DNA from: a virus
Length of the DNA: 59,847 nt
Reading direction: 5' to 3' (one strand)
IMG/VR virus record: IMGVR_UViG_3300047328_000044
Coordinates: 1-59,847 of that record
The translations under genes and the position numbers were made by a program. The notes under the pieces were generated by a model. That model saw only the letters and a list, made by a program, of their open reading frames with translations. It had not been told where the DNA came from and did no database searches. How positions within the stretch are numbered: position 1 is the first letter of the stretch; the number at the start of each line of letters is the position of its first letter. Positions 898 through 51,675 of this stretch are shown in pieces.

Positions 898-1646
898 GTA
901 AGGACACTGGCATCTCGTGGTGCGACCACACGTTCAATGTCGTCTGGGGCTGCTCGAAGATCACCGCGGGCTGCAAGAACTGCTACGCCGAGACGCTCGC
1001 CGCACGTTGGGGATTCAACGTGTGGGGCGTGGACGCCGAGCGCCGCACGTTTGGCGACAGGCACTGGAACGAGCCGCTCAAGTGGCAAAACGACGCGCGC
1101 CATCGCGCGCGCGTGCGGCGCCGCGTGTTCTGCTCGTCGATGGCCGACGTCTTCGAGGATCACCCGACGACACGCGCGCAACTGCCGCGGCTGTGGGCGC
1201 TGATCCGCGCGACGCCTGATCTCGATTGGTTGCTGCTCACGAAGCGCCCCGAACGGATCGCCGCGAGTCTGCCCGACGATTGGGCATTCGGTTATCCGAA
1301 CGTGTGGCTCGGGACGAGCGTCGAGAACGCCGACGTCACCGAGCGCATCCATTCCCTCGCGGCGATTCCCGCGGCCGTCCGCTGGATCTCCGCCGAGCCG
1401 CTCCTCGGATCGCTCGCGAACGCGCCGCTGCCACTGATCGATTGGGTCGTGGCCGGCGGCGAGAGTGGTCCCGACCATCGAGCGATGGATCTCGAATGGC
1501 TCTATGATCTGCGCGATCGTTGCGCGCGCGGCGGCATCGCGTTCTTCGTGAAACAGGACTCCGGCTCGTCGCCCGGCCGCCAAGGTCGCATCGACGACGA
1601 GACGTTCGCGACGAAACAGTTTCCGCTATCGGCAAGCCTCGTATGA
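894..1646 (+). CDS. Phage Gp37/Gp68-family protein (DUF5131)
   Basis: 250 aa, starting at GTG 894 inside the upstream stop. The N-terminus reads GISWCDHTFNVVWGC and then C-x5-GC-x2-CYAE, the signature of the DUF5131 family found in many phages and mobile elements. The three closely spaced Cys suggest a metal or iron-sulfur cluster; a distant link to radical-SAM enzymes is inference only. ISAEPLLG and VVAGGESG blocks later in the protein are also typical. Its position next to a RuvC-like resolvase and an exonuclease fits DNA metabolism, but the biochemical role is not established. Confidence 0.85.
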   Translation: MSKDTGISWCDHTFNVVWGCSKITAGCKNCYAETLAARWGFNVWGVDAERRTFGDRHWNEPLKWQNDARHRARVRRRVFCSSMADVFEDHPTTRAQLPRLWALIRATPDLDWLLLTKRPERIAASLPDDWAFGYPNVWLGTSVENADVTERIHSLAAIPAAVRWISAEPLLGSLANAPLPLIDWVVAGGESGPDHRAMDLEWLYDLRDRCARGGIAFFVKQDSGSSPGRQGRIDDETFATKQFPLSASLV

Positions 1647-2245
1647 GCGACATGCTCGTAATCGGCGTCGACCCTAGCCTCGGCGGGACGGGCCTCTGCG
1701 ACGGCCCGACGACGCACGTGATCCGCACGAAGCCCGGCACGTTCCTCGACGAGCGGATCGACGGCATCGTCGACGAGCTCGACGCGTACGTCTTCCGCGA
1801 TCGCGCGCCGCGGCGAATCTGCTTCGCCGTCGAGGCGCCCCTCACGGCCTCGAGCGGCGTCGCGGGCGGCGGGCATCTCTACGAGATCGGCCACCTCATG
1901 CGCGCGCTCCGGGCCGAGTACGTCGGGGATCTGCGCGCCGCCGGCGTCGAGGTCATCTGGCTCGAGGTGCAGATCGGCACGCTCCGGCATCACACGATCG
2001 GCGCTGGCAACGCGCCGAAAGATTTCCTCGCGTACGCCGTCGAGCGGATCCACGGCTTGACGTTCGCGGACGATCGCGGCGCCGATCGGCTCGTCGCGTG
2101 GTCGGCGCATCGGTACGGGACCGCGGTGCTGGCGGGCGAGATCGAGCACGTCTTTGCCGCGCAGCGCGGATCCGGCGCGCGCAGCCGCACGGCGATTCGG
2201 CGGACGGCGAAGACGCGTGCGCGCACGATGGCTGGTGTGGCGTGA
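1643..2245 (+). CDS. RuvC-like Holliday-junction resolvase (RNase H fold)
   Basis: 200 aa, ATG 1643 overlapping the previous stop. The first strand MLVIGVDPSLGGTGL carries the first catalytic Asp (residue 10). A Glu follows in FAVEAPL (about residue 63), and a C-terminal Asp pair sits in DDRGADRLVAW. This spacing is that of RuvC-type nucleases. Phage members cut branched DNA before packaging or during recombination. Neighbours are a DnaQ-like exonuclease and a HerA-like ATPase. The absence of a second obvious resolvase supports this role. Confidence 0.75.
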   Translation: MSDMLVIGVDPSLGGTGLCDGPTTHVIRTKPGTFLDERIDGIVDELDAYVFRDRAPRRICFAVEAPLTASSGVAGGGHLYEIGHLMRALRAEYVGDLRAAGVEVIWLEVQIGTLRHHTIGAGNAPKDFLAYAVERIHGLTFADDRGADRLVAWSAHRYGTAVLAGEIEHVFAAQRGSGARSRTAIRRTAKTRARTMAGVA

Positions 2246-2409
2246 CGCGCGTCGCGTTCGGATTCGCCCTCGGCGTGGCATCGACGCTCGCCGCGATCGT
2301 CGCGCTTGCGCGTCCGTTCTTCGTCGCCGCGGCCGCGCATTGGGATCAGCACCGCTCCCTCGACGACGCGCAGCGGAAACTCGGCGCGCTGCGCGGGGGT
2401 GCGCGGTGA
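2242..2409 (+). CDS. Small single-pass membrane protein
   Basis: 55 aa, GTG 2242 overlapping the previous stop, ending in a GTGA overlap with the next gene. Residues about 3-27 form one hydrophobic segment, followed by a short polar helix (WDQHRSLDDAQRKLG). It resembles an Rz/spanin-like or inner-membrane accessory peptide in shape only. Function unknown. Confidence 0.55.
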   Translation: MTRVAFGFALGVASTLAAIVALARPFFVAAAAHWDQHRSLDDAQRKLGALRGGAR

Positions 2410-2921
2410 ACTACCTGTACCTCGATACGGAAACCACCGGCCTGCACGACGACTCGCAGGTTTGGAATCTCGCATGGATTCTCGAAACGAACGGCCAGGA
2501 GGTGGGGCGGCGCGACATGCTAATCACGCACCGCGACGCGCCGTCCGTCTGGGTGCTCAAAAACACTCGATACGTCGAGCGTTTCACCGCATTGGACGCG
2601 TATCCCGTACGGCTTAGCTCGGCGATGATGATTCTGGAGGGCTACGTCCGCGTGTGCCCCGGCGATACTTATCTCGTCGGTGCCGTACCGTCGTTCGACG
2701 ACTATCGGCTGCGCCGCATCGGTGCGCCGCCCTGGCACTACCATCTCATCGACGTCGAGACGCTCGTCATGGGGCACTTCGGGCTGCGGTGGCCACCGTC
2801 GCTGCGCGAGATTGCGGAGCGGACCGGCGTCGTCAACGCGCGGCCGCACGACGCGATGAGCGATGCGCAGCACGTGCGCGACATCCACCATTGGCTGCTC
2901 GACGAGTGGTCAAAGCGTTGA
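2406..2921 (+). CDS. DnaQ-like DEDDh 3'-5' exonuclease
   Basis: 171 aa, starting at GTG 2406. Exo I motif YLDTETTGL is at residues 5-13 with catalytic Asp7 and Glu9. A middle Asp occurs in SFDDYRL. The C-terminal HDAMSDAQ gives the His and the last Asp of the DEDDh set. The family degrades single strands or proofreads. The protein stands alone, with no polymerase in the window, so repair or recombination is more likely than proofreading. It lies in a coupled run with the resolvase and the ATPase. Confidence 0.85.
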   Translation: MNYLYLDTETTGLHDDSQVWNLAWILETNGQEVGRRDMLITHRDAPSVWVLKNTRYVERFTALDAYPVRLSSAMMILEGYVRVCPGDTYLVGAVPSFDDYRLRRIGAPPWHYHLIDVETLVMGHFGLRWPPSLREIAERTGVVNARPHDAMSDAQHVRDIHHWLLDEWSKR

Positions 2922-4690
2922 GCGCGCTCCGCATCTCCGACACTCTCGCGCTCCCGATCGAGGCCGCAGTCGCGCGGTTCGTCATCCTCGGTAAATCCGG
3001 CTCGGGTAAGACGACGGCGGGCGCGGTCCTCGCGGAAGAGCTTTACGCGGCGGGCGTTACGCTCGTCGTGCTCGATCGGCTCGGCAATACGCACGGCCTC
3101 CGCGCTGCGGGTACGGGCGCCGGCCTACCGATCGCAATTCTCGGCGGCCTCAACGGCGACGTCCCCATTCGTGCCGATCGCGGTGCCGTCGTGGCGGATC
3201 TCGTCGCAAGCGGCGTCTCGGCCGTGCTCGACCTCTCGCAGATGACCCGCGAGGATGCCCAGCAATTCGCCGCCGACTTCTTCGATCGCATCGTTCCAGC
3301 GATTCGCGAATCGGGCCGTAACGTGCACGTGATCGTCGAGGAGGCCGAGACGTTCGCGCCCGAGCGCGTCACCGGGAAGTTGCACAACACGGTGCGCGCC
3401 GCGGCCACGGTGTTTGCGCGCACGGCTCGGAATTACGGCATCGGCTGGACGTTCTCGACGCAGCGACCGCAGTTACTCGCGAAGGACGTCATCGACTCCT
3501 CGACGGCGTTCCTCGCGATGAAGATGACGGGCGACCTCGCGCAAGAGGCGATCGGTGCCGAGGCGCGCTCGCGCGCGGGCAAAGTGCGCGCCGCCGAGAT
3601 CATCACCGACCTGCCGAATCTGCGCCGCGGTGAAGCGTGGCTCGTCCCCGACCTTGATTGGCTCGGCGACGATTCGGAGTCGGAGCCCGTGAAGTTCCGC
3701 TTTCGGTGGCGGCACACGTTCGATAGTGCCCGTCCGCCGAAGGTGGGAGAGCGGCGCGAGGAGCCGCGCGTTCTCGCCGACGTCGATCTTGAAAGTTTGC
3801 GCGCGGCGATGGCGGCCGAGCCGGCATCCGATTCTCCACAATCCGGTACGAAAGTAGAGTCCGTGCGCGTCGAGCGCGTCGAGGTGCCCATCCTCGACGA
3901 GATCATGGTCATCAATCTCAATCAGCACATCAGCGAGACGCAGGAGTCGCTGCGAAAGCAAGAAGAGGCGATGGCCTCGCTCCGCGTCGACGTCGATCGC
4001 GCGGCAACGCTTTTCGATCGCATCGTCGCCGCGATGGCGAAATACGGGACCGCGCCGGGCGAACCGGCGCAGGGCGTCGCCCCAGACGGCGACTCCGCAA
4101 AGCGTGGTGGAACGCGGAGGCGCCGGGAAAGCGCGCCCACCGGCCGGCCACGCGTTGAGGCTACCGCCCTTCCACGGTCCCCCTCGCCTTCGGGCGCCGG
4201 CGACGTCGGCGGCGGTCCGCGCAAGATCCTTGCCGCCCTCGCTGCGACGAAAGACCGCGCCGCGACGCGTACGCAACTCGCATTCCTCGCCGGGTTCTCC
4301 CACGGCGGTGGCAGCTACGCGCGTTATCTCACGACGCTGCGCGCCGCGCACGCGATCGTCGACCAAGACGGCCGGATCTACATCACGGCCGCCGGCGAGG
4401 CGATCCTCGGACCCGATGCAGTCGCGCCGGCAGCGACGACGCGCGCCGTCCTCGCGATGTTCCGCTCGAAACTCGGTGCCGGACCGACGAAGATGTTCGA
4501 CGCGCTTGTGGGCGTTTGGCCTAGCGGACTGACGCGCGACGCGCTCGCGGCCGCGAGCGGCTACGAAGCGTCCGGCGGATCGTTCGCGCGCTATCTCACG
4601 AGCCTCAGCTCTGCGCAACTGATCGAACGCAAGGGCGGCGTGATCCGCCTCGTCGACGAGCTCTTCCCCACCGGAAAGGTCAAACGATGA
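2918..4690 (+). CDS. HerA/FtsK-type P-loop ATPase with duplicated winged-helix tail
   Basis: 590 aa from TTG 2918 (TTGA overlap); GTG 2906 is an alternative start. Walker A GKSGSGKT is at residues 25-32 and Walker B VIVEEAE at about 137-143, followed by a STQRPQ sensor segment, all typical of HerA-like DNA-pumping ATPases. Residues about 330-420 hold a coiled coil and a Pro/Arg linker. The C-terminus carries two similar winged-helix units, each with a GGSYARYL or GGSFARYL core. HerA normally works with a nuclease, and two nuclease genes sit directly upstream. Role in end processing or segregation is inferred. Confidence 0.75.
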   Translation: MSALRISDTLALPIEAAVARFVILGKSGSGKTTAGAVLAEELYAAGVTLVVLDRLGNTHGLRAAGTGAGLPIAILGGLNGDVPIRADRGAVVADLVASGVSAVLDLSQMTREDAQQFAADFFDRIVPAIRESGRNVHVIVEEAETFAPERVTGKLHNTVRAAATVFARTARNYGIGWTFSTQRPQLLAKDVIDSSTAFLAMKMTGDLAQEAIGAEARSRAGKVRAAEIITDLPNLRRGEAWLVPDLDWLGDDSESEPVKFRFRWRHTFDSARPPKVGERREEPRVLADVDLESLRAAMAAEPASDSPQSGTKVESVRVERVEVPILDEIMVINLNQHISETQESLRKQEEAMASLRVDVDRAATLFDRIVAAMAKYGTAPGEPAQGVAPDGDSAKRGGTRRRRESAPTGRPRVEATALPRSPSPSGAGDVGGGPRKILAALAATKDRAATRTQLAFLAGFSHGGGSYARYLTTLRAAHAIVDQDGRIYITAAGEAILGPDAVAPAATTRAVLAMFRSKLGAGPTKMFDALVGVWPSGLTRDALAAASGYEASGGSFARYLTSLSSAQLIERKGGVIRLVDELFPTGKVKR

Positions 4691-6479: not shown

Positions 6480-6699
6480 TTCGGATGAGGTGCGGCGCCC
6501 GAGCGAATCACATCGCTTCGCCTCCGTCTCTGTGCCGTATGCTGAGCCCGCAACGCTATCGGAGTTGGCGAGGCTTACGATTGGACGATGCGGCCTTCGC
6601 GGTAAGGGCGTGCGCTGTAGCAGACGCGCGTGGCACGAAGGCGAGCATTTCTGTGATTTCGTCGATTCTGCTGGCGTCGAACGAAGGTTTTGGTTATGA
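6469..6699 (+). CDS. Small protein with C-x9-H-type zinc motif
   Basis: 76 aa from ATG 6469. The C-terminal RCSRRAWHEGEHFC resembles the C...GHxGxH knuckle common in small proteins of high-GC phages. The stop overlaps the next ATG (6696). Function unknown. Confidence 0.55.
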   Translation: MGSDSDEVRRPSESHRFASVSVPYAEPATLSELARLTIGRCGLRGKGVRCSRRAWHEGEHFCDFVDSAGVERRFWL

Positions 6700-7343
6700 G
6701 TGACTATGTGCGCTGCCCGGCGTGTGGGCACGAACGCGATGGACACGAGGTTCCGCCTGACGCGCCCGGATGCGCGGGGTCCATCGAGGTTTCGTTCAGC
6801 GTCGAGTTCGACGACTCGATCGATCATGAGTCGCCGTGCCAATGCACCCTCACGCCCACCGAGATCGACGCCGTGCTCGCGATGCGGGCAAGCGATCTTG
6901 CCGTAACGGGCACCGCCGAACGCACGACCATTGCGGCGCGCGATGAAACGGTGCCCGGTCGCCACACCGCCCCGGCCGGTGACGGCAAGAAGCCGGGACC
7001 TTCATGCGAGAATTGCGGGGATACCGGATGGGTATCGACCGACGTTCCCGGGCGCGCGGGACCGTTGACGAACCTCTGCCCGCGGATGTGCCCCGCTGCG
7101 ATGGGCGCCGCGCAGGCTCGCGTCACCGTTACTCAGGTGCCGCCGCATGTTCACGAGTTCCGTTACAGCCACACCGAGCAACGCCCACTCGGCGTGGGCA
7201 CCAATTTCGAAATGGTCGACGTCGCGATCTGCCCGGGATGCGCGGAGGTGCGACGCGGCGGCGGCGTCAGCATCGCGCGCGAGCGACTCGAACGACTCGA
7301 AGCGATCGAGAAGGCCGCGACCTACGATCCGAAGCGTACATGA
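6696..7343 (+). CDS. Multi-zinc-ribbon hypothetical protein
   Basis: 215 aa, ATG 6696 (TTG 6690 is also in frame). Three CxxC pairs are visible: CPAC near residue 6, CENCGDTG near 105 and CPGC near 185, plus CPRMC. This is a zinc-ribbon-type scaffold with a DnaJ-like central CxxCxxxG element. The C-terminus is a charged helix. Function unknown. Confidence 0.65.
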   Translation: MSDYVRCPACGHERDGHEVPPDAPGCAGSIEVSFSVEFDDSIDHESPCQCTLTPTEIDAVLAMRASDLAVTGTAERTTIAARDETVPGRHTAPAGDGKKPGPSCENCGDTGWVSTDVPGRAGPLTNLCPRMCPAAMGAAQARVTVTQVPPHVHEFRYSHTEQRPLGVGTNFEMVDVAICPGCAEVRRGGGVSIARERLERLEAIEKAATYDPKRT

Positions 7344-7450: not shown

Positions 7451-7873
7451 GTGGCGACCAACATTGAAAGCCTTAACCTCGACCCCGGCCAACGGGAGGC
7501 CGTGGAACTCATGCAGATATTCATCCGCGTCTACGGGCGCGGCGACGGCACCGGACTATTCTGCGGCGTCACGCGGTACGCGGTCCTCGAAGCGCGGACG
7601 CGGCTCGCGGCTACGCAGTCGCGGACGCCGCTCGAGTTCGCATCTCGCCTGATGCGCTCGATGCAGTGGCCCGTGCCGCCGAGCAAGGAGGACGCGGCGA
7701 TTTTCGACGCGCTCTCGACGGAGTGCGCCGCGCCCATGCTCGCGACGCTCATGCGCGACACGGCCGCGATCGTCATGCTCGCGCGTCACACGCTGCGCGA
7801 GGAGCGCGACGATAAGCGGATGCTCGAAATGTTGGAGCAGGGCGAACTGATCTCCAGCGGGGCGGTGCTATGA
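7451..7873 (+). CDS. Small all-helical protein upstream of a Cas7-like gene
   Basis: 140 aa, GTG 7451 chosen because AAGGAG lies 6 nt upstream. The sequence is predicted almost entirely helical, with Met-rich helices at the C-terminus. It overlaps the RAMP-like gene by 4 nt (ATGA), so the two are made together. Small helical proteins encoded beside Cas7 are often Cas11-type small subunits, but I see no specific Cas11 signature here. Unknown; that parallel is only inference. Confidence 0.55.
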   Translation: MATNIESLNLDPGQREAVELMQIFIRVYGRGDGTGLFCGVTRYAVLEARTRLAATQSRTPLEFASRLMRSMQWPVPPSKEDAAIFDALSTECAAPMLATLMRDTAAIVMLARHTLREERDDKRMLEMLEQGELISSGAVL

Positions 7874-8133
7874 TCGCGCGCGCGACCGTGCTCCTCGAAG
7901 CCACGTCGCCGATTGCGCACGGCGACACGCACTCCGGCATCGGAAACGAGACGAATGCGCGCCTCTTCATGCGCAACGCCGTCGCGGTGCGAGGCATGGC
8001 CATGCCGGTCCCGGGCATCTCGGGCAATGCGATGCGCACGACGATGCTGCGCGTGCCGCTCGCCGACCATCTCGTCGAGTCGGCGCGCTTTCCATGTCCC
8101 GATCTTAGCAGGTTGCGAATTAAAACGCAATAG
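7870..8133 (+). CDS. Short Cas7/RAMP-like protein (N-terminal RAMP domain only)
   Basis: 87 aa. A first strand (ARATVLLEATSPIAHG) is followed by a DTHSG...GNETNARLFMR stretch and then VPGISGNAMRTTMLR. That SPIxxG ... GISGNAxR pattern is the N-terminal half of the RRM-fold RAMP domain as in Cas7 backbone subunits, especially the type IV Csf2 kind. Full Cas7 proteins are usually 250-400 aa, so this is either a truncated remnant or a minimal domain. There is no CRISPR array and no Cas10, Cas5 or Cas6 nearby. The next gene's promoter starts inside its 3' end. Confidence 0.55.
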   Translation: MIARATVLLEATSPIAHGDTHSGIGNETNARLFMRNAVAVRGMAMPVPGISGNAMRTTMLRVPLADHLVESARFPCPDLSRLRIKTQ

Positions 8134-8140
8134 GTATAAT
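8113..8140 (+). promoter_or_regulatory. Leaderless sigma70-type promoter with inverted-repeat operator
   Basis: -35 TTGCGA (8113-8118), 16-nt spacer, -10 TATAAT (8135-8140). The ATG of the next gene is only 6 nt after the -10, so the transcript should start at or next to the ATG and have no leader. The arms TTGCG and CGCAA (8113-8117, 8126-8130) form an inverted repeat over the -35 and spacer, a likely autoregulatory operator. Confidence 0.75.
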
Positions 8141-8146
8141 GCGGAT

Positions 8147-8317
8147 ATGGAGAAAAAAGATCGCGGCCGTCCCGCCGTACCCGAGGACGAGAAGCGTCGA
8201 TCGGTGACCGTGATGCTCGCGCCCGAGACGATCGTGCGACTCGCCGAGATCGCGGACGCGTGGGACGTCTCGCGAGGCGTCGCGATCGATCAGCTCGTCG
8301 CGAAAGCGCGGCGCTAG
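8147..8317 (+). CDS. Ribbon-helix-helix (CopG/Arc-like) DNA-binding protein
   Basis: 56 aa from ATG 8147. A basic arm (EKKDRGRPAVPEDEKR) is followed by the strand RSVTVMLAP and two helices (ETIVRLAEIADAW, SRGVAIDQLVAKA), the RHH layout. Such proteins bind as dimers to short palindromes, with the strand in the major groove. Its own promoter carries TTGCG/CGCAA arms, and two more palindromes with the same arms lie at 58301-58333. Likely a small phage repressor. Confidence 0.75.
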   Translation: MEKKDRGRPAVPEDEKRRSVTVMLAPETIVRLAEIADAWDVSRGVAIDQLVAKARR

Positions 8318-8518: not shown

Positions 8519-9742
8519 GTGATCACGGCGGGGACGTCCATGCCACGGGTAGTGCCCGCTTCCTGCGAATCCGGACATGCTTGCGGGGTCGCACCGATAC
8601 GCGAGCATAAACTGTACGCCGTGGGAAGGGCGACGCCGGCTACGCGGACCGTCTCGATCGCGTCTATACGCGTCGGCACCCGCTATCGCAAGGATATGGG
8701 CGATCTCCAGGCGCTTGCCGATTCGCTCGCGGCCGAAGGGCTCATCCAGCCGCTCGCCGTCACCGAATCGCTCGATCTCGTCGCCGGCGAACGCCGCCTC
8801 CGCGCCGCGGAGATGCTCGGCTGGAACGACATCGCCGTGCACGTCGTCAGCGTCTCAAGCATCGTCGCGGGCGAATACGCCGAGAACGTCATCCGCAAAG
8901 ATTTCAGCGTCTCGGAACGCGTGAGCCTCACCGACGCGATCCGCGAAGCGATCGGTAACCGGCAGGGCGCGCGCACCGACGTCGGCGCGAAGAAACGTCC
9001 GGGAGATCACCCGGAAGTGCCACGTGGAACAGAGACGCGCACCTTCGCCGCGAATCTCGCCGGTTTCGATTCCGATCGACAGTACCGCGACGCGCGCGAC
9101 GTCCTCGCGAAAGGCGCACCCGAACTCGTCGCTGCGGTCGACGCCGGCAACGTCCCGATCTCGACCGCGCACGAGCTGCTCAAGCTCGACGCCGACACGC
9201 AGGCGAACGTCGTCAAGGGCGGCCGCCTTCGCGTCCAGGAGGCCGCGCGCGAGCTGCGCCGCAAGACGACGCAAGAACGCGAGCGCGTCGTGCCACGCGT
9301 GCGCATCGTCGCGACGGCCGACGGAAGCTATCCGTGTACGTTCCCCGGGTGCAAGCGCGGGCCCGAAGACCCCTATCTCAATTTCGTTCACCTCGCGAGC
9401 CATCGCACAACCGCGCACGGCATACGCAGCACGAACGTCGAGTCGCTCGCGCGTCAGGCCCGTCGCGATCGCCTCCGTGGCGAACAGGAAGCGGCCAAAG
9501 CCCAGGCGGCCGGCAACGGAGCGCCACTGCGGAACGACGCGCTCGATCGCGGGGAACGCGAGATGCTGCGCAAGCGGATCGATCTTGTCTGCCAGACGTA
9601 CGCACGCGAGATCCGCAAGCCGATCGCGGAAGTCTACCGCGCGCTCCTCGAGCTCGCGGGCGAAGACATGAGCCGTCCGATCGGAACGGCCCGCGTCGGC
9701 GCCGTCAGTCCGGATCGCGCGTTCGCCACGGGCCGCACGTGA
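8519..9742 (+). CDS. ParB/Spo0J-like protein with added zinc-finger-like segment
   Basis: 407 aa from GTG 8519; ATG 8540 is an alternative start. Residues about 45-120 match the ParB N-terminal nuclease/CTPase-like domain, with GLIQPLAV, VAGERRLRAAEMLGW and YAENVIRKDFSVSER. A helical DNA-binding region follows. At about 262-295 a C-x4-C...H-x4-H arrangement (YPCTFPGCKRG ... ASHRTTAHG) looks like an inserted C2H2 finger. Phage ParB-like proteins may act in partition, nicking or gene control. No ParA is present, so classical partition is unlikely unless the host supplies it. Confidence 0.75.
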   Translation: MITAGTSMPRVVPASCESGHACGVAPIREHKLYAVGRATPATRTVSIASIRVGTRYRKDMGDLQALADSLAAEGLIQPLAVTESLDLVAGERRLRAAEMLGWNDIAVHVVSVSSIVAGEYAENVIRKDFSVSERVSLTDAIREAIGNRQGARTDVGAKKRPGDHPEVPRGTETRTFAANLAGFDSDRQYRDARDVLAKGAPELVAAVDAGNVPISTAHELLKLDADTQANVVKGGRLRVQEAARELRRKTTQERERVVPRVRIVATADGSYPCTFPGCKRGPEDPYLNFVHLASHRTTAHGIRSTNVESLARQARRDRLRGEQEAAKAQAAGNGAPLRNDALDRGEREMLRKRIDLVCQTYAREIRKPIAEVYRALLELAGEDMSRPIGTARVGAVSPDRAFATGRT

Positions 9743-31951: not shown

Positions 31952-34900
31952 GTGGCGGCCGTCGACTTCCGCATTTCGGTCTTTTCGCCGAACGCGCAAA
32001 CGCTCGAAGCGAACGACATTTCCGGCGACGTCATCGCGCTTACCTACGAAGACACGCCGACCGGATGCGGCGCGGGAAAGCTGACGCTCGGGATCTATCT
32101 CGAGGACGTCGACTCCGACGGGTATTATGAGCCGTTCAATCTCGTCGAGATCTCGTCGGGCGACATGCGGCTCGCGACCGCTTGCGCTGCGGGTGCGACG
32201 AAGGTCTATCTCGACACGACAGAGCCACTCGATCGGACCAAGGGCGAAGACGTCCAGCAGCTCTATTTCTACGACGGCACGAACCTCACGATGCGCGTTC
32301 CGGTCGTGTCGATCGGGACCGACGGCGGGGGCGTATACGCGAATATCGGCGCGCCCGACGGGCATCTCGGTAACCCCTCGACGCTCCCGGCGTACGGCGT
32401 GGGAACGATCGTCGGGCGCCGCCGCTACGTCGGACGGGTTGCGCTCGTCTCGTCGCAAGAGACGCGCGATCCCAACGTCACCGTCACGCTCGTCGGCCTT
32501 ACGGTCGCGTGGACGCAAGCCTCCGGATCCGTGACGGCCACGACGTCGGCCAACGTCGACGTCGGAACGGCGCTCTACGACGTGCTCGTGCAGTTCGCGA
32601 CGTCGCACTGGCCGTTCTTCGCGTTCTCGCAAGCGAATTTTCCGACGGTCGGCTACACGTACGCCGATACCCTCACGACCGTCACGATGGACCGCTTCAT
32701 CGCCGACGCGCTCGGCGCGATCCCGACGGCCGATTTCTGGGTCGTGCGCGTCGGCCACGATCGCATTCCGCGTCTCGTGCAAGCGTATATCGCGTCGTCG
32801 AACACGTACGTGTACAACCGCACGCTCCAGCAGGGCGTGACGAACTTCGAGGCCCAACAGGTCCAGATCGACGGCGACGCGATCGCGAACGTGTACAACG
32901 CCGTCACCGTCACGGGATCGAGTAGTGGCCCGAGCGGTCAGCCCATCACGGTCCAGGTGACGGATCCGGCGTCCATTACGGCGCTCGGATTTCAGATCGA
33001 CGGACCGCCGGCATCGAACACCGCGATCACGACCACGGCTGCGGCGTCGACCTACGGCGCGGGCCTGCTCGCGCAGAATTCGCTCGCGAGCGCGACGCTC
33101 AAACTCTTGGTGTGGACGAACGACGACGCACCGGTTGCGCTCTACACAGGCGGACCAATTCGCGGCGACGTGCTGCGCGCGCTCGCGTGCATCACCGTCA
33201 CGAATTTCGACAAGACCGGGATCGTGACGAATTCCGCGCCCGACTCCGTGATCCAATACGGCACGGGCGTCGGCGCGCTCTGGACGAACACGGGCGGTCT
33301 TACGGTGATCGCCGGCGGCGCACCCGACGGGCAGAACGCGTGGAGCATTCCGGCGGGAGCCGGCGGCGGCTTTGCCTTCGGCCCGACGTTTGCGTGCGTG
33401 CCGGGTCAGGTGTGGACCTTCGCGGGCTACATCGATGCGTCGGGCGTCTCGGGCGGCGGCGCTTACAGTAATTACGCGTGGGCGATCGGCGGCTATACGG
33501 CTGGATCGACGACGCCGGTCAATCTCGCCTATTCCGACGCGACCACCGCAACGGGCACGAGCCCGGCGACGACCTTTACCGTACCGGCGGGTTATGTCGG
33601 CCTCTGCATCTACCCGGTGGTCGTCGCTCACTCCGGCGCGACCGGCAACGTCAAATTCTCGCAGCCGAACGTGTGCCGCGGCTCGTTCCTTCGCCCGTAC
33701 GTGCAGAACGCCGCGGCCCCGAACGTCTACGGCCTTCCGACGTCGATCGTCACGACCATCGACGTGAAAACCCAGACGACGAAGCAAGAAGCGCAGTTCG
33801 CTGCGATCGAGCCGGATTGGTCGTCGTATCAGCGCCTTCAGCAGAACCAAGCCGTCACGGCGCTGCTCGCGAACCGCTCGACGCCGCTATCGATCGATCA
33901 ATATTGCGTCTCGGCGAACCTGCGGAATTACACGACGAGCACGTCCACTCTAGGCGTAACGGTACCCGCGTTTCTCGCGCAATTCGCATCGGGGACGCCG
34001 CTCGTCTCGGTCCCCGCGCAGAGCCTAATCTTTCAACCGTCGCAGACCAATTACGTCTTCCTCGAGGCGAGCGGCTCGTCGTACGCGTTTGTCGTCCAGC
34101 AGTCGCCGACGACGATCCCGAACGCGATTGCGATCGGCTATTTCACGACGAGCGCGACTGGTGTCATCGGGTCGTTCTTCACCGCGCCGGTTGGCGTCTT
34201 CCAGGTCGGCTTCGGCAACGTCAATTCCACGACGACGCTGCCCGCGCCGACCTGGAGCGGCACGCCGTCGGTGACGAACGGCGCCGCGATCACGGGACTC
34301 GCGACGGCGGTCGACGCGTCGGTCGCGCTCAACAACGTGCCGACGAACGGATCGGCAGCGCAGATCCTCTGGCTCTATCGGCAGAGCGCGAGCGCGGGCG
34401 GATCGGGCGCGTGGATTCCGTACGAGGCGCAGAACCTCACGCTCGCGACGGGCTCGGTCTACCCGGCGGCCTCGCAGACGCAGACGTTCGAATACGATCT
34501 CAACAACGGCTCGACGTACGACATCGCCATCGCGTACGTCGGGCTCGCGGGCTACGGGCCGCTCTCGATCGTGCAGTCGGGCTTCGTGGTCAGCGCGATC
34601 GGCATTCCGAACGCATACATGCTGGCCGGATCGGGATCGGCACCGGCGGTCACCGGAACGGCGACGCCCACGGGCTCCAATGGCCTGACGGCCGCGATGG
34701 CGCTCGCGTTCACCCCGACGAATCAGCCGACGGACGGATCGCTTTCGCGCATCTCGATCTGGTACACCACGACCGCGATCTCCGGCACGTGGACGTACGT
34801 CGGGTCGTTCCCGGCCTACGGGGTCGGGTCGGCCTCTCCCCCGGCCTCGCACCCGTACACCTTCACTGTCGATTCGCTTGCGAACGGCACGACGTACGGC

Positions 34901-37900
34901 TTCGGCATCTCGTACGAAAACGCGCAAGGCGGCGAGACGGCCATCACGCAGTTCGCGACCGCCACGGCTCAGGCGATCGCGATCACCGTCCCGTACCTCA
35001 TCGCGGGCACGAAGCCGACGCCGACCTTCAGTGCCGCCTCAACCATCTCGAGCGCCCCCGCGCTCGCCGGCGTCGCGCTGCGCGTCGTTCTCGGCTGGAC
35101 GATCAATAATCAGCCCACGGACGGATCGCTCTCGCAGATCGCGGTCTATTACCGCATCCACGGCTCGGGTAACTGGTCGCAGGCGTTCGCGATCCCGGCC
35201 GCCGGCCTGCCGAACCCGACGAACCCGCAGAGCTACGCGAACGTCGAGATCCCCGCCATGACGGCGGGCGTTGCGTACGACTTCGGCATCGCGTACGAGA
35301 ACGCGCAAGGCGGCCAGGGGAATATCGCGGCTCCGGCCGCGTGGTCGAACTACACGCCCGCGCCGATCGCAATCGCGAACCCGTACATGCTCACGACGCT
35401 CTGGACGCCGACGATCTCGGCGGTCACGATCACCGCGGCCCCGACGGTCACGGGCGGCGCGGGAACGGTCGGGTCGCTCTCCGCGACGGCGTCCCTCGCA
35501 TTCACGACCACGCAGCCGACGGACGGCAGCCTGTCGCGCATCTCGATCTACGTTGCGATCGCGGGCTCCGGAAACTACGGCTATGTCGGGTCGATCGTCG
35601 CACAAGGCGCGTCGACGTCGTCGCCGCCGGCATCGGCGTCCTATTCGGGAATCCAGGTGCCGAACCTCACGAACGGCACGGCGTACGACTTCGCGATCGC
35701 GATGGAAAACGTCGCGGGCGGCGAGGGAGCGATCACGTACGTCGGCACGTCGACGGCGCAAGCCATCGCCGTCACCACGCAGTACCTCGCCGGCGGGACG
35801 CCCGTGTCTCCGACGAATACGAGCGTCACGATTGCGAGCGTCCCGACGCTGCCGGGCGTCGTCGGCCGCGTGCAACTCTCGACGACGATCACGAACCAGC
35901 CCGTCGACGGAACCTTCAAGGGCGTCGTGTTCTTCCAGCGGCAGCACGGCGCCGGTACGGGCGCGTGGTCCGTCGCGTTCATCGTGCCGACGACCTCCCC
36001 CGCGACGCCGGCCGCATCGGGAACGTACTCCGTCGAGCTACCGGAGGTGAGTGCGGGCGTCGCGTTCGACTTCGGCGTCGCATTCGAAAACGTCCAGGGC
36101 GCGCGCGGCGCAATCGTCTCGCCCGCCGCGTGGCAGAACTACACGCCGCAAGCGATTCAGATCGAGACGGCGTACCTACTCGGCACGATCGCGACGCCCG
36201 CCGTGCAATCGTCGCCCGGACCATTCACCGCGTCGGTCGGCACGAGTAACGGCCTCACGGCCGCCGTCTATGTCGCGTTCACGCTGACGAACCAGCCGCA
36301 GGACGGCTCGCTCTCGCGCATCGGCATGTGGCAGCGCGTGACCGCGGGCGGCTCGAATCCGTGGGTCTACGTCGGCTCGTTCCCATCGAACGGCGTGAAC
36401 TCGACGTCGCCGCCGGCCAGCGGGACGTACACGTTTCAATTCGACAATCTTACGAACGGCCAGGGCTACGATTTCGGCTGCAGCTACGAGAACGCGCAGG
36501 GCGGCGAAGGCACGACGGTCTTCATCGCTTCGGCGACGGCCGTAGCGATCGCGGTCAGCACGCCGTATCTGCTCAAAAATACCAATCCGGCGACGGCGCC
36601 GACGATCTCCGGAACGCCGACGGTCGCGAGCGTTTCGACGCTTCCGGGGTTTGCGGCGCGAGCCGGCGTCACGTTCACCGTCTCCAATCAGCCGACGGAC
36701 GGATCGCTTTCGCAGATCGGCTGCTACTATCGGAATACGGGCACGAATTGGTCCAAGGCGTTCGCCATTCCGGCGAGCCCGATCGTTCCGCCCTACTCGG
36801 CGTCGCAGACCTACTACTTCGAGATCGCGGACATTTCGGCTGGCGTGGCGATCGACTTCGGTTGCACGTACGAGGACGCGCAGGGGAACGAAACGCCGGT
36901 CGGCACGATCGCGACGAATTATACGCCCCTCGCGATCGGCATCGCGTCGCAATACATGCTCGCGGGCTCGACGCTCACGCCGGTCGTCTCGGGCCCGAGC
37001 GCCACAAACGGCACGTCCGCCGACGGCGTGAACGCGGACGTCATCGTGACGTTCTCGCTCACCAATCAGCCGACGGACGGATCTCTGTCGCGCGTGCAGA
37101 TCTGGGTGCGCCAGAGCTCCCGCGGCGGCTCGAACGTCCAGGGGAACTCCACGTTCTATTGGTCGCCGTACGGATCGCAGCAAGCCTACGGCGTCGGGTC
37201 GTCCTCTCCGCCCGCGAGCGGCCCATACCGATTCGATCTGGCCGACATGACGAACGGCCAGACGATCGACATTGGGGTCAGCTACGAGAACGCGCAGGGC
37301 GGCGAGTCGACGCTTGCCGTCGTCGTCTCGTCGTTCACGACGGCCGCGCTCAACCTGCCGGCGAGCGGCACGGCGTTCCAGAATCTCCTCACCGATCAAT
37401 TCATCGGCCTTGCGGTCAACTCGACGAACGGATTCCTCGCGATGCCCGTGGGCAGCGGCATCGCCATCTATCCGTCCACGCAATCGGACTACCTCGGGCC
37501 GTACGTGGGCGCGCCCGTGGACCAAGCCGCGATCGCATCGTACGCGACGTTCGTCATGCGCTTCCAGCTCACGAGCACGAGCGCGTCGGGCTTCATCACC
37601 GCTTCCATGTTCACGAGCGCGACCGCGCCTGCCGGCACGTTCACGAGCGGCTATTACATCACGTATACGCCGGGCTCGCCGCCCACGCTCACGATCAACA
37701 AGCTCGTCGCCGGAGCGCTCTACTCGATCGTTTCACGCAGCGCCGCGATCGCCGCGTCAGGCTTCTATGCCGCGGTCCCCGCCCTGCCGAACTCCGACCT
37801 CGCGTTCCACGAGCTGCGCGTCGTCATCATCCCCGGAAGCGGGCTCATCGTTCCCGCGCCGGGGATCACGATCGAGATCTACCTCGACTCGGTGCTCGTG

Positions 37901-40900
37901 CTGTCGTTCGCAGAAAGCACCACGACCGCCGCCGTCACGACCGGGCCGAGCTACTTCTCGTTCGGCGGGAACATCGGCGGCGTCGCGCCCTACACGTCGG
38001 GGACGTGCGGACCGGGGAGCAACGGGTACTCCGCGGTCTATCTCGATCCGCAAGACCTCGTAATGACCGGCACTCAGGGCGGTCGGCGATACGAGCAGCA
38101 GCAGGCGTCGCTCGTGAAATCTCAGGCGAAGCAAGCCGCGACGGGCTCGACGACGCCGCTTGAAACCGCCGTCGTGCAACGCGAGAGCAACGCCGGCACG
38201 ACCGGGCACGGCATCAACCTGCTCTTCAACCCGAGCGCAGCGCGCGGCTCGAACGGGTGGGCGACGTACGATTCGTCGGGAGGCGTGGCGTCGCTCTACA
38301 CCGATCAAAGCTCGGGCGGCCGGTTCCTCATCAACCTGCCCGCGCACGCGTACGGCGCCGCGAACAAAGTCGCCGAGTGGCTCCAAAATCTCAACACGAA
38401 CGCGTACAACACGCTCCTCGCCTCGTCGACGTACACGATCTCGGGCTTCCTCGAAGTGGCGTCGCTGCCGACGGGCGCGTACGCGCAGATCTCGCTCACG
38501 GGCCTGCCGACCGGATCGACGAGCGTCGGCCTCACGCAGTTCGCGTCTCCGGGCGTGTACTTTTTCTCGATCCAGGTCACGACGGGTAGCGGCGCTTTCT
38601 CCTCGCCCGCCCTGACGCTCGCCGTCAACACCGGCACGTCCGCGACGACGACCGTGGCCGCGTTCGTCGCGTTCCACACGCTCATGCTCGAGTCGGGCAC
38701 CGTCGCGACGCACTACGACGACTCGCAAGCGCACGCGCTCGTCGCGAACACGCACACCGCAACCGCCGGCGCCGAGGGGAGCTATCTCGCAGGCGGGTTG
38801 GTCAGCGCGCGGCACCTCTACGGTGGGAACGCCGCCGACGCGGGCGCGATGGTCGACTCGACCTCGAAGTTGCTCTTTGCGCGCCATCACGCCGCCGTGC
38901 AAGCCGCGCTCACGTCGACCGCAGGCGCCGATGCATCATACCTCGCGTCAGGTCAGATTTCGCGTCGTCACGTCAACCCCGCCGGCAGCGCGAACACGAT
39001 CAAGAACCCGCGTTTCCAGAACGGCCTCGCGGGATGGTCGTTCTACTCCACCGCCTCCGCCGGCTTGATCGGCGCGTACGCTACGAGCGCCTACTTTGGC
39101 GGATCCGCATCGATCGTGTCGGGAGCGAGTCGGGGCGCAACCGCCTACCTCGACGAGATCTATCAGGCCGTCAACGCGAACTCGTTCGGCTACCTCAGCG
39201 GCGCTGCCGTCGTCGCGGCCGTGTGTGTGTACATTCCCGTGCTCTACGCAGGCGCGAGCGTCTCGCTTGCGTGGTCCGACTCGTCGGGCGGCAGCGGCAC
39301 CCTCGCGACCTCGACCGCAACTGGCACCGTATTGCTCAGCGGCACGTTCACGCCGACCGCGGGCGCCACGACGGTCAACCTCCTGTTCCAGCTCACCTCC
39401 GCGGGAAACGCGGCGTCGCAGGTCATTTTTTACGATCCCAAACTTGAACTTGGCAGCGTCGCGACGCCCTTCCGCGACGACAACGCCACGTCGCTGCTCG
39501 CGCTCACGCACGAGGTCGAACTTGGCTCGACGGGCTCGTTCCGATCGCAGACCGTTCAAGATCGCCACATCGCCGCGAGCGTGCCGCGGAAGAACCTCAT
39601 CGTCAACGGAAATAATTGCGCGGGCACCGGCGACACGGCTCCATCTACGTTCGGCTGGAAGGGCGCGTACAACACGACGGCCGCGCCGTTCTCCGGTGGA
39701 AATTACGGGCCGTTTCTTTCGATCGGCTTCACGAAAACCTCGACTGCGAGCGCGCAGGGTTACTACCAAGACGTGCCGGTCACCCCGGGCCAGACGTACA
39801 CGTTCCAGGGCCTAATCTACGACGTCTCGGGAAGCTGCTCTCCGACGATCTGGATCGGTAAGTCCGACTACTCGACGCAATACAACGCTTCGCCGACCAC
39901 GCCCGTCAACGTAGCAACGATCCCCGCGTTCTACTCCGGCGCCGCCACGCACGCGAACGCGAACAGCACGACGAGCACCGCCGGTTGGGCGCATCTGTAC
40001 GGCACGTTCGCCGTACCGTCGGGCGTCTCGAGCGTACGCGTGCTCATCTACGACAGCGGCTCCGTCGCCTCGCTGTCGTTCTACGCTCAGGGCATCATGC
40101 TCACCGAGGGTTCGCGCCTCCAAGATTATATCGACCACGAAGGCAACGCGGGCTCGATCGCAAATCGACACCTCAGCAACGCGACCCAGGATGGCCTCGC
40201 GAACGGCACCTACACGCGGTCCGTGTGGAACCTGCCGCATCAGGGCGCGAACCTCGTGGAGAATCCGTACTTCGCCGTCACGGCGCAATCGCCGACGACG
40301 GAGGTCGCCGCGAATTGGGCGGGCCTGCCGACCGCCAATATCGCGTATAACGGCGGATCCGGCTGGACGATGAGCCAGGAGACGACGACGGGCGGCAGCG
40401 CGCTGATCGGCAGCAACGACGTCCTCTGCCGCTACAACACGGGGGTCACGATCCCCGCGTCGACCACGTACTCGAACCGCATCACGACGGAACGCGTCTT
40501 CGCGGCATTGCCGGGCGACTCGTTCGTGCTCAACGTCCACTATTCGATCGCGTCGCTCGCGTCGCTGCCCGCCGGCGTCCAACTGAATCTGCACTTCGGC
40601 TTCTACCGCTATTTTTCCGACGGCACGAACGACGTCGGCGCCGGCGCCGTCGGGCTCGTGAATCTGCCGAACGTCAGCACGGCCACCGCGGGCTACGCCA
40701 CCGCCTCGACGACGTACACCGTGCCGCAGCCGGTCTCGAAATCGGTCGTCGGGCTCACCGTCACGCTCGAAATCGAAATCCAGAATACGACGGGCTCTTC
40801 GTACACGACGACTAACCTCGTGGCCGACGTGCGCTTCGGGTACGTGCAGTGCTATCGCTTGACGAATCTCGCCTCCGAAGTCACGGGGCAACTGCCGTAC

Positions 40901-41332
40901 GCGAACGACAGCACCGCGACGCAGGCGGCGATCAGCTCGGCGGGCGCGCTGCAGGGCGTCAACACCGCGATGATCGGCCCGTACGGCACGACGCCCGGCT
41001 TCTCGACGATCAATTCGTCGCAGACGTTCACGCCGTCCCTGACGATTACGATCCCGTCGTACGGCTCCTGGTTCGTCGAGATCGAATGGACCGCGCGATG
41101 CACGTACACGTCGCTTGCGATCGCGGCGACGAGCACCGGCACGATGGGCACGCCTTCGTCGATCAACGCGCCGAACACGACGACCGTCCCGACGACCGGC
41201 GTCGCGAAGTATATCGTGACCGCGACGGGTGCCCAGACGATCACCGCGACGTTGACCGCGACGACCGGAAACTTCACCGGTGCCGCATGCGCGACCGGCC
41301 TCTATATCACGCGCCTCTGGCGCTACGCCTAA
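31952..41332 (+). CDS. Giant tail tip/receptor-binding protein with Fn3-like repeats and CBM-like modules
   Basis: 3126 aa from GTG 31952. Residues 1-450 resemble a tail hub/Dit-Tal-like region (MDRFIADALGAIPTADFW). Residues about 757-1810 carry eight Fn3-like domains, most with QPTDGSLS and YENAQGG signatures. After that comes a lectin-like segment and at least four modules opening with N-x-P/NG motifs (LLFNPSAARGSNGW, IKNPRFQNGLAGW, LIVNGNN, LVENPYF), similar to CBM4/9-type carbohydrate-binding domains. Linkers contain RHL/RHV/RHI. It probably replaces the separate Dit, Tal and fibre genes and binds surface glycans. Confidence 0.8.
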   Translation: MAAVDFRISVFSPNAQTLEANDISGDVIALTYEDTPTGCGAGKLTLGIYLEDVDSDGYYEPFNLVEISSGDMRLATACAAGATKVYLDTTEPLDRTKGEDVQQLYFYDGTNLTMRVPVVSIGTDGGGVYANIGAPDGHLGNPSTLPAYGVGTIVGRRRYVGRVALVSSQETRDPNVTVTLVGLTVAWTQASGSVTATTSANVDVGTALYDVLVQFATSHWPFFAFSQANFPTVGYTYADTLTTVTMDRFIADALGAIPTADFWVVRVGHDRIPRLVQAYIASSNTYVYNRTLQQGVTNFEAQQVQIDGDAIANVYNAVTVTGSSSGPSGQPITVQVTDPASITALGFQIDGPPASNTAITTTAAASTYGAGLLAQNSLASATLKLLVWTNDDAPVALYTGGPIRGDVLRALACITVTNFDKTGIVTNSAPDSVIQYGTGVGALWTNTGGLTVIAGGAPDGQNAWSIPAGAGGGFAFGPTFACVPGQVWTFAGYIDASGVSGGGAYSNYAWAIGGYTAGSTTPVNLAYSDATTATGTSPATTFTVPAGYVGLCIYPVVVAHSGATGNVKFSQPNVCRGSFLRPYVQNAAAPNVYGLPTSIVTTIDVKTQTTKQEAQFAAIEPDWSSYQRLQQNQAVTALLANRSTPLSIDQYCVSANLRNYTTSTSTLGVTVPAFLAQFASGTPLVSVPAQSLIFQPSQTNYVFLEASGSSYAFVVQQSPTTIPNAIAIGYFTTSATGVIGSFFTAPVGVFQVGFGNVNSTTTLPAPTWSGTPSVTNGAAITGLATAVDASVALNNVPTNGSAAQILWLYRQSASAGGSGAWIPYEAQNLTLATGSVYPAASQTQTFEYDLNNGSTYDIAIAYVGLAGYGPLSIVQSGFVVSAIGIPNAYMLAGSGSAPAVTGTATPTGSNGLTAAMALAFTPTNQPTDGSLSRISIWYTTTAISGTWTYVGSFPAYGVGSASPPASHPYTFTVDSLANGTTYGFGISYENAQGGETAITQFATATAQAIAITVPYLIAGTKPTPTFSAASTISSAPALAGVALRVVLGWTINNQPTDGSLSQIAVYYRIHGSGNWSQAFAIPAAGLPNPTNPQSYANVEIPAMTAGVAYDFGIAYENAQGGQGNIAAPAAWSNYTPAPIAIANPYMLTTLWTPTISAVTITAAPTVTGGAGTVGSLSATASLAFTTTQPTDGSLSRISIYVAIAGSGNYGYVGSIVAQGASTSSPPASASYSGIQVPNLTNGTAYDFAIAMENVAGGEGAITYVGTSTAQAIAVTTQYLAGGTPVSPTNTSVTIASVPTLPGVVGRVQLSTTITNQPVDGTFKGVVFFQRQHGAGTGAWSVAFIVPTTSPATPAASGTYSVELPEVSAGVAFDFGVAFENVQGARGAIVSPAAWQNYTPQAIQIETAYLLGTIATPAVQSSPGPFTASVGTSNGLTAAVYVAFTLTNQPQDGSLSRIGMWQRVTAGGSNPWVYVGSFPSNGVNSTSPPASGTYTFQFDNLTNGQGYDFGCSYENAQGGEGTTVFIASATAVAIAVSTPYLLKNTNPATAPTISGTPTVASVSTLPGFAARAGVTFTVSNQPTDGSLSQIGCYYRNTGTNWSKAFAIPASPIVPPYSASQTYYFEIADISAGVAIDFGCTYEDAQGNETPVGTIATNYTPLAIGIASQYMLAGSTLTPVVSGPSATNGTSADGVNADVIVTFSLTNQPTDGSLSRVQIWVRQSSRGGSNVQGNSTFYWSPYGSQQAYGVGSSSPPASGPYRFDLADMTNGQTIDIGVSYENAQGGESTLAVVVSSFTTAALNLPASGTAFQNLLTDQFIGLAVNSTNGFLAMPVGSGIAIYPSTQSDYLGPYVGAPVDQAAIASYATFVMRFQLTSTSASGFITASMFTSATAPAGTFTSGYYITYTPGSPPTLTINKLVAGALYSIVSRSAAIAASGFYAAVPALPNSDLAFHELRVVIIPGSGLIVPAPGITIEIYLDSVLVLSFAESTTTAAVTTGPSYFSFGGNIGGVAPYTSGTCGPGSNGYSAVYLDPQDLVMTGTQGGRRYEQQQASLVKSQAKQAATGSTTPLETAVVQRESNAGTTGHGINLLFNPSAARGSNGWATYDSSGGVASLYTDQSSGGRFLINLPAHAYGAANKVAEWLQNLNTNAYNTLLASSTYTISGFLEVASLPTGAYAQISLTGLPTGSTSVGLTQFASPGVYFFSIQVTTGSGAFSSPALTLAVNTGTSATTTVAAFVAFHTLMLESGTVATHYDDSQAHALVANTHTATAGAEGSYLAGGLVSARHLYGGNAADAGAMVDSTSKLLFARHHAAVQAALTSTAGADASYLASGQISRRHVNPAGSANTIKNPRFQNGLAGWSFYSTASAGLIGAYATSAYFGGSASIVSGASRGATAYLDEIYQAVNANSFGYLSGAAVVAAVCVYIPVLYAGASVSLAWSDSSGGSGTLATSTATGTVLLSGTFTPTAGATTVNLLFQLTSAGNAASQVIFYDPKLELGSVATPFRDDNATSLLALTHEVELGSTGSFRSQTVQDRHIAASVPRKNLIVNGNNCAGTGDTAPSTFGWKGAYNTTAAPFSGGNYGPFLSIGFTKTSTASAQGYYQDVPVTPGQTYTFQGLIYDVSGSCSPTIWIGKSDYSTQYNASPTTPVNVATIPAFYSGAATHANANSTTSTAGWAHLYGTFAVPSGVSSVRVLIYDSGSVASLSFYAQGIMLTEGSRLQDYIDHEGNAGSIANRHLSNATQDGLANGTYTRSVWNLPHQGANLVENPYFAVTAQSPTTEVAANWAGLPTANIAYNGGSGWTMSQETTTGGSALIGSNDVLCRYNTGVTIPASTTYSNRITTERVFAALPGDSFVLNVHYSIASLASLPAGVQLNLHFGFYRYFSDGTNDVGAGAVGLVNLPNVSTATAGYATASTTYTVPQPVSKSVVGLTVTLEIEIQNTTGSSYTTTNLVADVRFGYVQCYRLTNLASEVTGQLPYANDSTATQAAISSAGALQGVNTAMIGPYGTTPGFSTINSSQTFTPSLTITIPSYGSWFVEIEWTARCTYTSLAIAATSTGTMGTPSSINAPNTTTVPTTGVAKYIVTATGAQTITATLTATTGNFTGAACATGLYITRLWRYA
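34618..37375 (+). repeat. Tandem Fn3-like coding repeats, alternating A and B types
   Basis: Seven units of about 390 nt, preceded by a divergent eighth at about 34220. A-type units have SLSRI, a TNG turn and YENAQGGE; B-type units have SLSQI, WS-AFAIP, AGVAxDFG and NYTP. They run A-B-A-B-A-B-A, so the array grew by duplication of a two-domain block. Confidence 0.75.
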
Positions 41333-50756: not shown

Positions 50757-51010
50757 CGACGTTCGAACTCGACGTCGAGCCCGGGCGCGTCGACCTGCCG
50801 ACCCCGATCCTGCGCTTCGCGGACGGCGACGTGCAGACGGCCCCGATCGCATCTCTCGACGACGCCACGGCGGACGGGATGCGGATCGCGCTCGACCGGC
50901 TGCGGGACGACTACGAACGCGCCACCCTTGCGCTTCTCACCGAACTCGATATGCGCGACGCGCGCTATTGGATGGACCCGCTCTTCCCGGAACTTGAGGA
51001 GGCCGCATGA
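50753..51010 (+). CDS. 85-aa acidic hypothetical protein
   Basis: ATG 50753 overlapping the previous stop. Helical, acidic; coupled to the pentapeptide protein. Function unknown. Confidence 0.55.
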
Positions 51011-51675
51011 TCGCGACCGATCTTAAAAAGGTTCTCGATGCGCACCTCGCGTGGCGCCGAGGCGAAGCCGATGGCGCGCGCGCGTATCTGTCGGGCGCGT
51101 ATCTGTCGAACGCGGATCTGTCGGGCGCGTATCTGTCGGGCGCGTATCTGTCGCGCGCGGATCTGTCGGGCGCGAATCTGTCGGGCGCGGATCTGTCGGG
51201 CGCGTATCTGTCGCGCGCGGATCTGTCGCGCGCGTATCTGTCGGGCGCGTATCTGTCGGGCGCGGATCTGTCGGGCGCGGATCTGTCGGGCGCGGATCTG
51301 TCGGGCGCGGATCTGTCGGGCGCCGGCCACGACGCCGAGACGTCGTGGCCGGCGTTCTACGTGTGCCCGGATTTTGGGAGCTTCACCGGCTGGAAGAAGC
51401 TACGAAACCAGATCGTCGCGCAGCTCGAGATCCCCGCGGAGGCGAAGCGCGTCTCGTCGGTGGTCGGCCGGAAATGCCGGGCAGAGTTCGTGCGCGTTGT
51501 CGCGCTGTACGGTGCGGGCGATCCGACTGAAGGCTTCGACGGCCATACCGGCAAGACGCGCTACGCCGTCGGTGAGATCGTACGGCCGGATGCATTCGAC
51601 GACAATTTCCTCATCGAGTGCACGAACGGAATCCACTTTTTCGTCACGCGTCGCGAAGCCGAGGGGTACGCGTAA
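51007..51675 (+). CDS. Pentapeptide-repeat protein with DUF5758-like tail
   Basis: 222 aa from ATG 51007. Residues about 26-106 are sixteen A(Y/D)LSG/R/N pentapeptides, which form a right-handed four-sided beta helix. The C-terminal 110 aa ([20 protein letters not shown]) is a globular domain also found fused to pentapeptides in phages. Some pentapeptide proteins mimic DNA and inhibit gyrase, but this array is too short to say so here. Confidence 0.85.
51083..51322 (+). repeat. 15-bp tandem repeat array coding pentapeptides
   Basis: Sixteen near-identical 15-mers (TATCTGTCGGGCGCG or GATCTGTCGGGCGCG). Very uniform, so recent or gene-converted. Because the unit lacks stops, all three forward frames and one reverse frame stay open. 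Confidence 0.9.

Follow-up and report, generated by a model that had tools for sequence, protein, structure and literature searches.

Two overlapping genes of a temperate tailed phage encode an intact Cas11 and the N-terminal quarter of a Cas7 (Csf2), both of type IV; the pair is probably what remains of a type IV-B (csf) operon carried by the phage. The evidence for this reading comes from the homology of both products, the absence of the usual operon partners, and an abrupt break within cas7 that coincides with a change in base composition.

The virus record consists of one stretch of 59,847 bases with a GC content of 66%, all of which was analyzed and is referred to here as the window. It carries terminase, portal, integrase, RecT, DnaB, and endolysin genes, a set consistent with a temperate tailed phage. 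The two ORFs are found on the + strand at 7451-7873 (140 aa) and 7870-8133 (87 aa), as given in the first-pass annotation. They belong to a same-strand run directly upstream of parB and terminase, flanked by small genes on one side and the parB/terminase block on the other. The ORFs overlap as ATGA, with the ATG of the second placed over the stop of the first, which suggests that the cas7 fragment is translationally coupled to cas11. Elsewhere in the window, a RuvC-like resolvase, a DEDDh exonuclease, and a HerA-like ATPase are encoded by neighbouring genes that precede the terminase block (1643-4690), a single 3126-aa ORF follows the probable tape-measure gene (31952-41332), and a gene at 51007-51675 contains 16 copies of a 15-bp tandem repeat (51080-51323) encoding pentapeptide-type repeats (ADLSG).

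The upstream gene encodes a complete type IV Cas11

The cas11-like gene (7451..7873, + strand) has a GTG start and an AAGGAG ribosome site, and encodes a complete helical bundle of 140 aa. PADLOC assigned the product to typeIV_Cas11 with an E value of 0.0027, a weaker match than that of the 87-aa product to typeIV_Cas7. Its nearest relatives are helical domains inserted within the Cas7 proteins of about 14 uncultivated phage/MAG contigs. An HMM built from the inserts of 12 of these chimaeras, with the window protein left out, scored the 140-aa protein at 65 bits (E=2.9e-19), while shuffled sequences reached at most 10.5 bits (4,000 shuffled controls in total, 2,000 per window protein). Searching the PDB with a profile of the inserts and the window protein returned the Csf Cas11 7jhy_h at E=3.1e-4.

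The AlphaFold (AF2) model of the protein has six helices (pLDDT 82), bearing out the earlier description of a helical product. Foldseek ranked a Cas11 subunit from 7JHY, a type IV-B complex, first (7jhy_g; probability 0.98, TM 0.55), with an E value of only 0.33. All 11 residues that are invariant in the family are kept, and the third-position GC content (GC3) of the gene is 0.87. Both the sequence profile and the predicted α-helical bundle are those of the Csf small subunit, and we conclude that the 140-aa protein belongs to type IV Cas11 and that its gene is intact.

The downstream ORF is the N-terminal quarter of Cas7

The 87-aa product had been noted for an SPIxxG...GISGNAxR pattern typical of Cas7 backbone proteins, and it does contain the motif SPIAHG...VPGISGNAMR. 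This truncated cas7/csf2 ORF (7870..8133, + strand) is matched by the PADLOC typeIV_Cas7 profile PDLC01572 (E=6.6e-10), with residues 5-73 aligning to profile positions 8-70 of 280, and by our phage Cas7 HMM (E=7.3e-13, 44 bits; shuffled controls at most 10 bits). A single-sequence search of the PDB gave Csf2 of 7JHY at E=0.034, and the fragment also matches PHROG 22746, a 304-aa family of unknown function. A degenerate DNA pattern for VPxISGNAxR has a single match in the window and no match in 100 shuffled versions; it also retrieved approximately 20 phage contigs bearing full-length Cas7, from which the phage Cas7 HMM was built. Searches for related loci with each window protein singly found no relatives, and tblastn against phages returned no match to the 87-aa protein and only noise for the 140-aa protein. 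A match to a 1213-aa Streptomyces plasmid protein was rejected as chance because the alignment lacks the Cas7 motif.

Alignment and HMM both limit the homology to aa 1-71 of ~300 (7870..8082, + strand; GC3 0.90). Mapping of this part on the AF2 model of the chimaeric Cas7 L120 revealed that it comprises β1, β2, β3, and α1 of the modelled fold, equivalent to strands 13-21, 42-49, and 227-234 and helix 237-256. The N-terminal strand and the ISGNxxR helix motif of the RAMP/RRM backbone are thus present. The complete palm and thumb are not, as nothing in the fragment matches the model beyond residue 256, where strands 324-330, 357-365, 373-381, 386-393, and 429-436 lie. This agrees with the earlier observation that the rest of the fold is missing. 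No remaining piece of cas7 was found in six frames across the whole window, and a frameshift can be ruled out as the cause of truncation since the Cas7 C-terminus is absent from every frame. The homologues are Cas7 proteins longer than the window ORF, rather than members of an unrelated family. We identify the 87-aa product as the first quarter of a type IV Cas7/Csf2, and the likeness to a Cas11 and Cas7 pair that had been suggested holds for type IV by profile, HMM, and Cas11 structure match.

Cas7 homology ends where an AT-rich island begins

The homology to Cas7 stops at residue ~71 (nt ~8082). Across this position GC3 drops from 0.90 to 0.44, and an AT-rich, promoter-like stretch begins where homology and codon bias end; the segment 8096-8160 has a GC content of 40%, in the 0.05th percentile of the window. 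Together these features indicate that the last 16 residues of the ORF (8083..8133, + strand), a tail without homology, are the result of read-through into non-coding-like sequence up to a stop and are not part of Cas7. A consensus scan located one sigma-70-like promoter past the truncation point, TTGCGA-16-TATAAT (8113..8140, + strand; 10 of 12 matches), where 0.4 sites were expected. The site stops six bases 5' of the ATG at 8147 of a small gene (8147..8317, + strand), an ORF read directly that encodes 56 aa with a weak match to transcriptional regulators in PHROG (E=0.046). Its product is probably an RHH-like DNA-binding protein, probably expressed leaderless from this putative promoter.

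The window lacks the partners found in related operons

HMMs of the relatives' csf1, cas5, cysH (two groups), and IbrB-like ParB gave nothing below an E value of 0.04 in six frames of the whole window, and no CRISPR-like repeat array was found there, in agreement with the first-pass annotation, which had seen neither an array nor a further cas gene. Two candidates were discarded: the gene at 6696-7343 was considered as a hidden csf1 and had no match by PADLOC or HMM, and the window ParB (8519-9742) was considered as the IbrB-like ParB of IV-B operons and had no match by HMM.

The search for related Cas7 loci returned 46, of which 39 are uncut; in all 39 the Cas7 is 275-598 aa, and where enough flank is present cas5 lies beside Cas7 in 32 of 33 uncut relatives and cysH near it in 25 of 25, although these counts are not fully independent since some contigs are near-duplicates. 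Looking for longer homologues in related phages thus yielded at least 275 aa in every uncut case, and the window is alone among the related loci seen in having a truncated Cas7. No Cas11-only locus was present among them. In the reference operon L011, PADLOC identified csf1, cas7, cas11, and cas5; in L114 it identified csf1, cas7, and cas5.

Type IV-B (csf) systems such as that of Mycobacterium sp. JS623 (7JHY) resemble the window in having cas11 directly 5' of cas7, a homologous Cas7 N-terminus, the Cas11 fold, and no array, but the window lacks csf1, csf3/cas5, and cysH, as well as all but a quarter of csf2. The order cas11-cas7 is also that of type IV-B operons with a separate cas11 (L011, L013, and those of Fuxiviridae; PMC10848311), and 'APLARHLVES' in the L011 Cas7 resembles 'VPLADHLVES' in the window. 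These operons are complete with a full-length Cas7, whereas that of the window is truncated. Type IV-B has already been described in viruses (PMC10848311), and the window locus is a broken version of this known operon.

Origin and possible activity of the gene pair

The first-pass annotation had offered three options: a decayed type IV-like piece, a dominant-negative inhibitor of host CRISPR complexes, or a new RNA-binding module. The first is the best supported, by the homology, the missing partners, and the truncation point. The ancestor would have carried csf1-cas11-cas7-cas5-cysH, presumably in this order. We know of no agreed function for type IV-B. Proposed roles include guide-RNA sponging (PMC8175902). 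In the complete complex six Cas7 subunits bind ~55-60-nt heterogeneous RNA and five Cas11 subunits sit on the Cas7-Cas7 interfaces (PMC7937560); the ancestral operon would likewise have formed a Cas7 filament and a parallel Cas11 row on small RNAs. A deletion or recombination may then have taken cas7 from codon 71 on, cas5, and cysH, as well as the upstream csf1, and thereby joined the stump to the AT-rich promoter and small regulator gene. What remained would be one complete Cas11 and a coupled β1-β2-β3-α1 fragment of Cas7. As it has neither the thumb nor the other parts of the palm, this fragment is not expected to form a Csf filament by itself, and any present-day activity is most likely that of the intact Cas11 alone, or none.

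In trees with their relatives, both window proteins have unusually long branches, at 2.96 and 3.49 changes per column where the medians are 0.72 and 1.05; relaxed or altered constraint would be expected to produce such lengths. A point against a relic is the lack of visible erosion: cas11 keeps its invariant residues and high GC3, and the cas7 reading frame is preserved, its start coupled to cas11. This would fit a fresh relic and equally a maintained gene pair. The terminase neighbours of the phage share at most 41% identity with it and were rejected as too distant to give a view of the ancestral locus; with no near relative found, deletion and selection are not directly visible.

A maintained pair might work as a Cas-mimic anti-CRISPR, in which Cas11, the Cas7 fragment, or both would join a host class 1 filament and block either its elongation or its binding to targets. 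Both ORFs are open, coupled, and codon-biased, Cas11 is complete at all 11 invariant positions, and the fragment retains the conserved strand and ISGNxxR helix region; the small regulator-like gene directly 3' would also be in keeping with many acr loci. PMC13131331, citing Katz et al. 2024, provides a precedent in AcrIB3, which mimics Cas5 and takes the place of the native subunit, and in AcrIB4, which matches just the C-terminal domain of Cas8b. Like the window pair, these are cas homologues that stand alone or are incomplete and reside in mobile elements, but they belong to other Cas families and have been tested experimentally. Considering that the truncated form occurs in no other phage among those searched, that the fragment ends in a non-coding-like tail, and that both proteins have long branches, we regard an anti-CRISPR role as unlikely. 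A more specific version is still more doubtful: a two-gene module whittled down by the phage, in which Cas11 and a filament-capping Cas7 N-terminus would poison host class 1 CRISPR complexes. Anti-CRISPRs have been shown to arise from viral cas genes that stand alone or are incomplete, so the stump is an inexpensive candidate for testing; if it were active, a partial-Cas anti-CRISPR would derive from the type IV backbone.

We give little credence to a reduced working module, in which Cas11 alone would bind nucleic acid or a phage partner in the packaging/ParB region and the Cas7 piece would be a by-product. The gene is complete, clearly coding, and part of the same-strand run just 5' of parB and terminase, but the relatives offer no Cas11-only locus and a search of the window for a partner gene identified none. 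The new RNA-binding module is not supported either, since the Cas7 palm is mostly absent and nearly all well-flanked relatives reside in fuller type IV-B operons. An assembly artefact that joined two molecules within cas7 would account for an abrupt break coinciding with a composition change in a metagenome contig; it is very improbable given that both flanks lie on one strand and read as a single temperate phage, with no sequence gap (0 N). Only the shortness of the 87-aa ORF speaks for a chance resemblance of two genes unrelated to cas, a reading refuted by the shuffled controls and rendered scarcely credible by three separate lines of evidence (profile, structure, and synteny) that bear on the two genes jointly. 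Phage copies of type IV-B operons, and the parts kept after loss, are clues to which subunit matters.

Related phage operons carry Cas11 inside Cas7

A further outcome of the search was a set of phage operons whose Cas7 contains Cas11. The full-length Cas7 proteins of contigs L010 (486-aa ORF) and L026 (513-aa ORF) matched both window proteins, and each contains, after the second strand and before the third, a ~170-aa helical insert that bears the motif G[DE]GxGLFxGxxRY and is homologous to the window 140-aa protein. Further Cas7(Cas11) chimaeras were recovered by similarity and motif, and the loci are L010, L026, L109-L115, L119-L121, L124, L128, and L130. The chimaeric Cas7 genes include L010:3978-5396, L109:6968-8389, L110:6983-8407, L113:6938-8410, L114:6971-8407, L115:3480-4889, L119:5490-6866, L120:2488-3915, L121:4719-6152, L124:6460-7833, and L128:4168-5568. 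Their products are ~470-490 aa with the Cas11 domain between strands 2 and 3, and they sit in csf1-cas7-cas5-cysH (type IV-B) operons, some of which continue with a second CysH-like and a ParB-like gene. By relationship, the window Cas11 stands nearest to this insert, and the Cas7 segments on either side of the insert match the window's Cas7 fragment. The chimaeras hold Cas11 inside Cas7, at β2/β3, whereas the window encodes Cas11 in its own gene, upstream of a Cas7 piece that is truncated but free of any insertion.

The Cas11-insert HMM also matched, weakly (E 6e-4 to 1), separate genes immediately 5' of uninterrupted Cas7s in L022, L009, L019, L082, L012, and L003, which would be expected had the insert arisen by capture of a Cas11. 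The model of the whole L120 chimaera (pLDDT 77, pTM 0.64) matches Cas7 of type IV-A, IV-B, and III complexes. Using two chimaeras as tblastn queries, we found no chimaera in cultured phages and only ordinary Cas7 matches in plasmids. The consulted portion of the 2025 classification lists III-E and III-I Cas7-11 fusions and makes no mention of Cas11 within a type IV-B Cas7; the arrangement may be unreported, a lead that reflects a partial body of literature. In filaments of such chimaeras, Cas7 and Cas11 would naturally be present at a 1:1 ratio, a parallel to the III-E/III-I fusions, from which the chimaeras are nonetheless distinct. Two other phage type IV Cas7 ORFs are unusually long: L008:737-2275 (513 aa) carries ~200 additional residues N-terminal to the Cas7 motif, with no cas5 match nearby, and L148:4551-5927 encodes 459 aa.
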